Of a DNA stretch of 45,078 nt, positions 260 through 3,540 are shown in pieces. The position numbers and the translations under genes are program-made. This stretch comes from Candidatus Woesearchaeota archaeon (GTDB lineage: Archaea > Nanobdellota > Nanobdellia > SCGC-AAA011-G17 > JACPNG01): positions 34,139 to 79,216 of the forward strand of contig JACPNG010000022.1 of NCBI GenBank assembly GCA_016185605.1, written 5' to 3'. The first letter of the stretch is position 1, and every line of letters begins with the position of its first letter. The notes under the pieces are model-generated. The model ran no database searches, was not told the origin of the DNA, and saw nothing but the letters and a program-made list of their open reading frames with translations.

Positions 260-994
260 TTATCCAAAAGGATCAATTTGAACCCTATAAAGAACAACAG
301 CAAATAATTTAGAGCTAATAATAGGCTTTTCTAAGACCCTACCATACAAACTAATAGATATACAAATATTGACTAAGACCCATAGATTAAACAGACAAGT
401 AGAGAATAAGAAATAGAATAATCTCAAATGAAAGTTCTTAGATGTAGTTCTGGGCTTAAAATCATGTTCTAGTTGCCTATATTTTGTCTCAATTCCCCAT
501 CTAGCTTTATAAAAAGAAAAAAGGTAATGGGTTAATTGTTCTGGAATATCTAAATTAGTAGAGAATGCTCTCTTTATTCCAACTTCATCATCAACTAAGA
601 CTAGATTTGTGATAACATCTCCAAACTTAAAATCCTTAATAACTCTAGCTTTGCAATCTTCACTCTTATCATACCATTGCTTTACAGTAGAACTTCTTAT
701 CTTGGGCATTAAATAATTAACATTATTATTGTTAAGAACTTTAATAATGGAAGGCTTATCAAATCCCCTATCTAAATACACTTTATCTATATGTATTTTC
801 TGTTTAGCCCTTTTAATCAGTTTATTAACTAATAATTCAATATCATCTAAAGGGTGAACAATTAAGGCATCTATTGTAAATCTTCTGCCAGCTACTACAA
901 TGGAACAAGTAATGAACTTAAAAAAATGACTAGTTCCTCTGTCTTGTTTGCTATTAACAATATAAGGATCATCTTTATCCCCATAACTTAGGAA
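260..994 (-). pseudogene. DDE transposase remnant (IS4/ISH3-like), N-terminally truncated
   Basis: The ORF track starts at an internal Met (781), but the same frame is open to ~994 (YGDKDDPYIVNSKQDRGTSHFFKFITCSIVVAGRRFTIDALIVHPLDD...). C-terminal RWGIETKYRQLEHDFKPRTTSKNFHLRLFYFLFSTCLFNLWVLVN is typical of archaeal IS4/ISH3-like DDE transposases. Confidence 0.75.
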
Positions 995-1001
995 TTAAAT
1001 A

Positions 1002-1394
1002 ATGGAAAAAACATGGATTAAATGGAATGAGAGAGATAAATATTTAACCAATGAGTCAGGAATCTATTTTTTAGCTCATTTTTATGGAAAATCTCCAGAA
1101 GAATTTAACTCTAAAGATAAAAGAATATTCTATATAGGTAAAGCTGGATATTTAAAGGGAAGATTAGAAACATTTGATAGATCTATTAATCATAAAGATA
1201 AAAATAAGATTAAGAATATAAAACATGATGGAGCAAGAAAGTATAGGAAGAAATATGGTAAGAATAAGATAAATCAACTTTATGTGGCTATTGAATTTGT
1301 TGCTGACACTTTAGGAGATAAAGAAAGAGAATATATTAAGAATTTTGGGGATAAAAAACCAGAGTTAAACATAAGAAGAACAAATAAAAAATGA
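1002..1394 (+). CDS. GIY-YIG nuclease-like protein
   Basis: SGIYFLAHF...RIFYIGKAGYLKGRLETFDRS matches the GIY-YIG core. Confidence 0.6.
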   Translation: MEKTWIKWNERDKYLTNESGIYFLAHFYGKSPEEFNSKDKRIFYIGKAGYLKGRLETFDRSINHKDKNKIKNIKHDGARKYRKKYGKNKINQLYVAIEFVADTLGDKEREYIKNFGDKKPELNIRRTNKK

Positions 1395-1495
1395 ATTTAT
1401 TCAAAGACGCACCAAGAGACTGGAGATTTTATCTAAAATACTTTAGTTTAGGATGGCTTACTGCTTTAGCTATGTGGTATTATTGGCTAAGATAA
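1391..1495 (+). CDS. 34-aa small hydrophobic protein (MNLFKDAPRDWRFYLKYFSLGWLTALAMWYYWLR)
   Basis: ATGA start/stop overlap with the GIY-YIG gene; one hydrophobic segment; absent from the ORF track because of length. Confidence 0.4.
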   Translation: MNLFKDAPRDWRFYLKYFSLGWLTALAMWYYWLR

Positions 1496-1559
1496 GAGAA
1501 TGGGAATATATTTAAAAACTAAAATTTATTATAGATATAATAAAGAGGGAGAGATAAAA

Positions 1560-2012
1560 ATGGAAAAAAGAGATTGGATATTAGCTTTTTTATTTGCTAA
1601 AGGAAAAACTGAAGAAATAGGCGAACCTATAGATGGTAGTTTAAGATTAATGAAAAATCTATTTTTATTATGGATAGAAAGAAACAATTTAAATTTAGAT
1701 AATATATATGAGGATTTCAAAAAATATAATTATGGTCCTTGTGATTTTAATGTTTATAAAGATATGAAGGACTTAAAAGAAGATAAATTAATAGAAGAAG
1801 TTGATATAGGCAGAAGTTATTCTAAATTAAAATTAACAAAAAAAGGTTATGAAAGAGCTGAGATGATATTTAATAATATGACTAGAGACATAAAAGAGAA
1901 AATTATAGAGATAAAAAAAGAAATAAATAGTAGAGATAGTTTATTATCACTATTAAAATTTATTTATGAGAAATACCCAGAATGGGCTGAAAATAGTTTA
2001 ATAAAAATATAA
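1560..2012 (+). CDS. SocA/Panacea (DUF4065)-like protein
   Basis: Likely start at 1560 after a GGGAGAG-type RBS; LMKNLFLLW...YNYGPCDFNVYKDMKDLKEDKLIEE...LKLTKKGYERA resembles the YGP...Y.DL..L...GLI...LT.KG pattern. Confidence 0.5.
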   Translation: MEKRDWILAFLFAKGKTEEIGEPIDGSLRLMKNLFLLWIERNNLNLDNIYEDFKKYNYGPCDFNVYKDMKDLKEDKLIEEVDIGRSYSKLKLTKKGYERAEMIFNNMTRDIKEKIIEIKKEINSRDSLLSLLKFIYEKYPEWAENSLIKI

Positions 2013-2036
2013 AGATTCAAAATAATGGGGGGTCAT

Positions 2037-2747
2037 ATGACCTTAATAGTAGCATTAGTATGTAAAGACGGGATAGTCATGGGAGCAGATAGTCAAGTTA
2101 CTTCAATGCCTATAAAAAGAAGAATTTCGGACAAAATATGTAAAGTGTGCGATTCTGTTTTAATGGCTGGTGCTGGTTCTTTAGCACAAATTCAGAAAAT
2201 TCAGGATAGTATTTATTCAATACCAGCTGAGATAATAAAGGAAGGAAATTTAGAAAAAATAAAGGATTTTATAAAAATGCAAGTAGCACACCCTATAAGA
2301 AAAAGTACATTAATACATTATCAACAATTAGGAACTCATCCAGATAGACCAGAAATAGGAGATAATGCAGAGATAATTTTAACAGGTTTTAATAGTCAAA
2401 GACCAACTATTTTTCATTTAGATGTAAATGCTATGGATACTAAACATAATGATTATTGTACAATAGGGTTTGGATTACCATTTGCACAAGTTATTTTAAA
2501 AGAAGTTAAAAATATTAATGAATTAGCTATTGAAAAAGGAAAAATATTAGTATATAAAGCAATAAAAGATGCAATTGAAACAGGTGCATTTAGTATGGAT
2601 TATCCTATAAGTATATGGACTATGATTAATAATGAAGGAAAGATAGTAACTAATAAAGTTGATGAGGATGAAATAAGAGGAATTGCAGATACAGTAAGTG
2701 CTATTTCTAAAACTACTATAGAAAAACTTTTTAGTATTGATAAATAA
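2037..2747 (+). CDS. Proteasome beta-subunit-like N-terminal nucleophile hydrolase
   Basis: MTLIVALVCKDGIVMGADSQVT...RRISDKICKV: Thr directly after Met, Asp at +17, Lys at +32. GGGGGGT RBS just upstream of ATG 2037. Confidence 0.75.
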   Translation: MTLIVALVCKDGIVMGADSQVTSMPIKRRISDKICKVCDSVLMAGAGSLAQIQKIQDSIYSIPAEIIKEGNLEKIKDFIKMQVAHPIRKSTLIHYQQLGTHPDRPEIGDNAEIILTGFNSQRPTIFHLDVNAMDTKHNDYCTIGFGLPFAQVILKEVKNINELAIEKGKILVYKAIKDAIETGAFSMDYPISIWTMINNEGKIVTNKVDEDEIRGIADTVSAISKTTIEKLFSIDK

Positions 2748-2755
2748 ACATTTTT

Positions 2756-3265
2756 ATGCCAAAATGTCCAAATTGTAATTATGAGTTAGTATTAATCCCT
2801 AATATAGTGAAGTATAAATGTTCTAAATGCGGTAAGCTATTTCCACAAAGAGATGTAGATAATATAACATTCCAAAGATGGAATAAGAAACAAAGAGATG
2901 TAGATAAACACAATCTCAAAGTAGAAAAGATAAGATCTAAACTAACAGAAGAAGAAAAAGACAAAAGAGCTAAGTTATGGAGAGAGAAAAATATTGAAAG
3001 GATAAAAGCTAGGGAAAGAGAATTATGGTATAATGGTACTAGAAAAATATATCTCAAAGAGTACTATCAAAGGGATTTAAACCGCTCACGTTTAGGCAAA
3101 AGAATCAAATATTATAGGTTAAGACAAAAGTTATTAGCACTTCAAATGTTAGAAAAACAAGAGATTAAGGCTTATACTAATAATCTATTCATTTCACCGC
3201 CCACTTACTTACATTACCAACTACTTTCCAAACCAAAAGTATTAAAAAATAAGAAATTAGCTTAA
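2756..3265 (+). CDS. Zinc-ribbon protein, possibly transposon-associated
   Basis: MPKCPNCNYELVLIPNIVKYKCSKCGKLFPQ: two CxxC knuckles, then a basic helical region. Confidence 0.55.
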   Translation: MPKCPNCNYELVLIPNIVKYKCSKCGKLFPQRDVDNITFQRWNKKQRDVDKHNLKVEKIRSKLTEEEKDKRAKLWREKNIERIKARERELWYNGTRKIYLKEYYQRDLNRSRLGKRIKYYRLRQKLLALQMLEKQEIKAYTNNLFISPPTYLHYQLLSKPKVLKNKKLA

Positions 3266-3269
3266 TCAA

Positions 3270-3540
3270 GTAGACTAGATTGGGCAGTCAGCCCTTGCCT
3301 GTAACCACAAACGGGCTTCATGGTGGAATCGAAGCTCAGGAAAAGGTATGGCTAAGGTTATTAGTCTTTATCTGGACGTTGAGGCTCTGTCCTGTTTGGT
3401 TGATATTTTTGTGAATCGTGTCAGATTAGGAATAAAGCAGCACTAAGCAAATATATTGGCGCTTACAGGGTAGCGGGGCCGAGAAAGGATAAAGGCAGCT
3501 AATCTCTTTGGTTTATATCAATTCTTGGGCGCGTCTACAC
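3270..3540 (+). ncRNA. ffs: Archaeal signal recognition particle RNA (7S/SRP RNA)
   Basis: Helix 8 motif GTGTCAGATTAGGAATAAAGCAGCAC (3418-3443) matches the GUCAG..GGAA..GCAGC signature; terminal GTAGAC (3270) pairs with GTCTAC (3533-3538); locally elevated GC. Confidence 0.85.

Follow-up and report, generated by a model that had tools for sequence, protein, structure and literature searches.

Gene content of the locus

The window, by which we mean the whole stretch of 45,078 nucleotides that was analyzed, corresponds to C18:34139-79216 in an 857-kb DPANN-type archaeal genome. A block of four ORFs, all of them confirmed in the ORF list and all on one strand, has a DnaG-like gene and the gene of an archaeal SRP RNA in its vicinity (window ORF list, Rfam) and lies between the latter and a transposase remnant (Table 1). 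An earlier note, made from the sequence, had described four close same-strand genes with an ATGA overlap beside such a remnant, and both the ORF list and a match to PF01609 agree with that description; the remnant is present in one copy only in the host genome. Two starts are possible for each of the last two genes of the block, and homologues favor 1560 over 1500 for the Panacea-like ORF (MEKRDWIL...) and 2037 over 2025 for the hydrolase ORF (MTLIVALVCKDGIVMGADS...), which places the hydrolase start 24 nt after the Panacea-like stop.

Table 1. Features at the locus, in window coordinates.
Feature	Position	Strand	Remarks
DDE transposase remnant	260..781	-	PF01609, E=3.6e-4, just under the cut-off
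GIY-YIG-type nuclease, 130 aa	1002..1394	+	Upstream neighbor; motif and PHROG match
Putative membrane peptide, 34 aa	1391..1495	+	From the ORF list; ATGA overlap with the GIY-YIG stop
Panacea-like winged-helix protein, 150 aa	1560..2012	+	First gene of the conserved pair
Proteasome-type Ntn hydrolase, 236 aa	2037..2747	+	Second gene of the pair; PF00227
Zinc-ribbon protein	2756..3265	+	Starts 8 nt downstream of the hydrolase
Archaeal SRP RNA	3268..3540	+	Rfam RF01857, 133.5 bits; downstream boundary of the accessory block

The first ORF carries a GIY...YIG...R motif and matches a PHROG endonuclease profile (E=6e-5), with the Pfam GIY-YIG family reaching only E=0.1, and a family profile search with the 34-aa ORF returned no match. 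No GIY-YIG motif was seen at the 12 further loci that carry the pair (described below) or in 144 relatives, and the ORF lists of those 12 loci likewise did not contain the 34-aa peptide. Of the single accessory operon proposed earlier, what recurs is the Panacea-like/hydrolase pair; a four-gene system is not supported. On this distribution the GIY-YIG gene probably lies outside the module, and the small peptide is not a part of it.

The basic zinc-ribbon protein downstream belongs to a separate DPANN family which is multi-copy in some relatives and in which a number of copies are broken by stops. This suggests a mobile or decaying element, probably unrelated to the pair.

A divergent proteasome-type hydrolase

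The hydrolase matches the proteasome family PF00227 with 56.5 bits (E=3.7e-15) against a cut-off of 22.4, and 8 of 9 aligned members match the family. Thr directly follows the initiator Met, a propeptide is absent, and the alignment confirms the Asp17, the Lys33 and the GFG in place of GSG that had been read from the sequence, with Gly47 kept in addition. Thr1, Asp17, Lys33 and Gly47 are retained in the window and in 11 intact viral members, including 5 members which were found via the partner gene and hence were not selected on these residues. The supporting residues are less constant: the Ser129 motif is GSG in the viral members and GFG in the window, and Asp166 is not conserved among the pair hydrolases, the window having Gly at that position. 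Ser129 and Asp166 act together as a supporting relay in the yeast proteasome, where a D166N substitution strongly lowers activity (PMC4792962); given the degeneration of both positions, the window enzyme may be slow, specialized or impaired.

Housekeeping alpha and beta genes are located on other contigs of the same genome (C23 and C5, respectively), which makes the window hydrolase a third, divergent copy, distinct from the housekeeping proteasome as the earlier note had proposed, and rules it out as the only proteasome of the genome. DPANN housekeeping betas have a KTG-Thr propeptide; more generally, the propeptide ending in Gly-Thr, the GSG at Ser129 and Asp166, which are canonical for 20S beta subunits, are all three present in them and absent in the window hydrolase. 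The host genome (~92% complete) gave no match to the OB domain of PAN-type ATPases (PF16450), despite its proteasome alpha and beta genes.

An AlphaFold model of the hydrolase (pTM 0.72, with a poorly modeled middle) matches 20S proteasome subunits, and it bears on whether the protein might instead resemble connectase and be not a protease but a monomeric enzyme of the ligase or amidase type, with the Panacea-like protein or another target as its substrate and toxicity not involved. Connectase shows that ligation is possible in the proteasome-like family (PMC8665760), and the second relay of Ser129 and Asp166 is not conserved here; however, the S3-S4 insertion of the connectase type is not evident in the AF2 model, and we regard this explanation as very improbable.

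The Panacea-like partner

Profile searches left the Panacea/SocA assignment of the earlier note below threshold. The 1560-2012 protein scores 13.2 bits against Pfam SocA_Panacea (PF13274), for which the cut-off is 25.7, and the best member of the pair family reaches E=2e-4. It does match the PADLOC profiles PDC-M19A, type I specificity-subunit C-terminus and DarG, and across eight Panacea-like pair proteins PADLOC returned PDC-M19A for all eight and DarG for five. The AlphaFold (AF2) model is a winged helix (pLDDT 90), and the PDB chains that match it best come from the DarTG complex of M. tuberculosis (7yk3; Foldseek E=1.4e-3, TM 0.60). The GPV motif of Panacea domains is kept as GP, with F as the third residue in viral members (YGPF) and C in the window (YGPC). 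As GPV is important for neutralization by PanA, this substitution and the score below the Pfam cut-off count against an antitoxin reading.

The next Foldseek matches are winged helices that bind DNA, among them RTP and MarR, and these, together with the phage settings of the pairs, would fit a regulatory switch in which the Panacea-like protein binds DNA to repress its own operon and is cleaved or modified by the hydrolase on a signal, in the way of ImmA-type proteases and their repressors. However, the best fold match is a toxin-antitoxin complex and not a repressor, and the C-terminal domain of DarG is itself a DNA mimic (PMC11481870); a switch of this kind is, in our judgment, distinctly unlikely.

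In three other DPANN genomes (L035, L069, L070) a Panacea-like domain is fused to an apparent DUF488-type domain, as judged by eye, and PADLOC PDC-M19A (294 aa) may represent such a Panacea-like/DUF488-type fusion. Elsewhere (L027, G306:C5) a DNA cytosine methyltransferase-like gene has a Panacea-like gene two genes upstream of it, possibly another defense association.

Recurrence of the gene pair

Conservation of the pair was the decisive test. Its absence elsewhere was one of three observations that the earlier note had named as refuting, the others being a 1560-2012 protein without a Panacea fold and a beta-like protein that is simply the only proteasome subunit of the genome; all three were checked and none was borne out. 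The window hydrolase has no close sequence relatives that similarity search could find in IMG/VR, phages, plasmids or genome contigs, and among 371 DPANN genomes its relatives were housekeeping betas only. We searched IMG/VR with a degenerate DNA pattern for the first 18 residues of the hydrolase, a looser pattern and then one profile-guided round. The first pattern returned two contigs, both with a Panacea-like gene immediately upstream, and the hydrolase-side searches together yielded seven contigs with a long-form hydrolase (L056-L062), all seven with a Panacea-like gene directly upstream; the hydrolase gene of L058 is missing the part that encodes D17 and K33 and appears broken. By comparison, no Panacea-like gene was found near any of eight other Ntn families with a Met-Thr start, within the flanking DNA examined (7/7 vs 0/8; Fisher p=1.6e-4). 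Searching in the opposite direction, from the Panacea-like alignment, yielded 21 loci, or 17 distinct testable loci once 2 at a contig edge and the redundancy among 3 identical ones were discounted, and at 12 of these 17, including 5 new ones, the hydrolase adjoins the Panacea-like gene. The pairing thus recurs, and the module is present on at least 12 phage or prophage contigs and in the archaeal window.

In the 12 viral loci and the window alike the Panacea-like gene comes first and the hydrolase second, with intergenic gaps of -4 to +25 nt across the pairs and several ATGA or GTGA overlaps. Close pairs of the viral clade have pN of 0.18-0.32 and pS of at least 0.74 for both genes, synonymous change being saturated; purifying selection acts on the two genes in this clade. 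The five distinct Panacea-like loci that have no hydrolase indicate that the partner may be exchangeable. tblastn found no counterparts of the viral partners in plasmids and phages, and no Ntn gene stands beside other DPANN Panacea-like genes (9 places in one search, some of them weak, and 7 in another).

Two further arrangements were seen in these searches. L082 has two Panacea-like paralogues in tandem and no hydrolase, and eight loci (L036, L039, L040, L044, L045, L046, L048, L049) encode short (163-196 aa) proteasome-like phage proteins with a Met-Thr start, a separate type which is found without a Panacea-like gene.

Viral pairs occupy typical prophage cargo positions. The neighbors include a terminase (L059), a P22-type portal (L060), a capsid gene (L084) and an integrase (L075, L081), and restriction genes are adjacent twice, as HsdR with a tail-fibre-like protein (L076) and as a SacI-like restriction enzyme with a D12 methyltransferase (L056); a toxin-like/HTH gene pair lies near the module in L061.

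Kinship of the archaeal copy

Whether the window pair belongs with the viral pairs was judged from profiles, trees and gene order. An HMM built from the 12 viral Panacea-like partners scores the window protein at 75.6 bits and other DPANN Panacea-like proteins at no more than 56, and a profile from the viral hydrolases only gives 52 bits for the window and at most 43.5 for the other archaeal homologues tested. The window Panacea-like protein is 29% identical over its full length to the L037 partner; its position in the Panacea-like tree is not resolved. For the hydrolase, a smaller tree joins the window with the pairs (94/72), whereas a larger one excludes it from the clade of viral pairs (95/93) and puts it between the archaeal betas and all others. 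The latter placement favors a view in which a diverged archaeal beta and a promiscuous Panacea-like gene came together in the window by chance or independently, the bacterial and viral pairs being separate; the highest identity of the hydrolase, 29% to an archaeal beta, and the presence of the pair in 1 of 371 sampled DPANN genomes point the same way. Against this stand the higher scores of both window proteins on viral-only profiles, the shared gene order and spacing, and the smaller tree, and we consider juxtaposition quite improbable. Common descent of the window and viral pairs is favored by the sequence comparisons, the window copy being, by its GFG for GSG, a divergent one.

A proposed toxin-antitoxin or defense module

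Taken together, these results lead us to propose, at a little under an even chance, that the two genes of window 1560-2747 form a horizontally spread module of a type II-like toxin-antitoxin or defense kind, with the hydrolase held in check by the Panacea-like protein. The toxin-antitoxin or defense setting suggested in the earlier note is plausible from the prophage cargo positions, the nearby restriction genes and the DarTG-like fold. The restraining role is proposed by analogy: the Panacea antitoxins that have been tested bind and neutralize diverse toxins directly, the antitoxin usually being encoded first (PMC8832971), and the C-terminal domain of DarG blocks the active site of DarT by direct binding (PMC11481870). 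In such a module methionine aminopeptidase would remove the initiator Met and expose Thr1 of the hydrolase, and the Panacea-like protein, made first, would bind the enzyme and hold it inactive. Loss or diversion of the partner, for example during phage infection, would release the hydrolase, which would then cleave proteins of the cell or of the phage, with growth arrest or abortive infection as the outcome; the effector of the module would be a proteasome-fold enzyme.

The co-conservation of the two genes would also be expected if, as the earlier note had suggested, the Panacea-like protein were an adaptor, one that brings specific substrates, for example proteins of phages or mobile elements, to a hydrolase inactive alone, as in SocA-SocB-ClpXP. 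SocA is indeed a proteolytic adaptor with a Panacea domain (PMC8832971), and no ATPase gene is evident among the neighbors of the pairs, so that recruitment would need another source. However, PanA antitoxins other than SocA neutralize without ClpXP or Lon (PMC8832971), and a ring protease that has no unfoldase would have access to unstructured segments only. We consider an adaptor role unlikely, and judge inhibition by direct binding somewhat more likely than adaptor function.

Many prokaryotic and phage proteasome homologues have no known role, and the pair provides this orphan group with its first recurrent genetic partner; a tight partner of the antitoxin type also yields a concrete, testable functional hypothesis. 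If restraint by the Panacea-like protein is correct, a proteasome fold would serve as a regulated effector in a role other than housekeeping degradation, and a new enzymatic class would be added to Panacea-controlled effectors. A broader proposal, which we find possible and rather doubtful, is that recruitment of proteasome-fold enzymes has supplied toxins or defense effectors, forming a phage-borne, Panacea-controlled and unfoldase-independent Ntn family with its own inhibitor in bacteria, phages and archaea.

Comparison with known systems

The open-access literature searched contained no report of a Panacea-like/proteasome-like pairing. The pair resembles PanAT (Kurata et al., 2022; PMC8832971) in being a two-gene unit with a small Panacea-like protein first, an exchangeable partner and prophage locations, and differs in that the partner is a proteasome-fold hydrolase, the domain falls under the Pfam cut-off and YGPF or YGPC replaces GPV; the main text of that paper makes no mention of a proteasome or peptidase toxin or partner. 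DarTG supplies both the PDB entry that the Panacea-like model matches best (7yk3) and a precedent for inhibition by binding through the DarG C-terminal domain, whereas the pair has no macrodomain, NADAR domain or DarT-like ADP-ribosyltransferase. With archaeal 20S beta subunits and HslV the hydrolase shares the fold and catalytic triad, but it has no propeptide, alpha or HslU partner, or conserved Asp166; the C-terminal helix also differs, and the housekeeping proteasome genes are separate. Furthermore, the 22 novel proteasome homologues of Fuchs, Alva and Lupas (2021; PMC8665760) are alike in fold, in the Thr1-Asp17-Lys33-Gly47 core, in having no propeptide and, for some, in their occurrence in phages. 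That survey found no genomic context suggesting a function for the new homologues (PMC8665760), whereas the hydrolase described here has a specific, recurrent partner gene.
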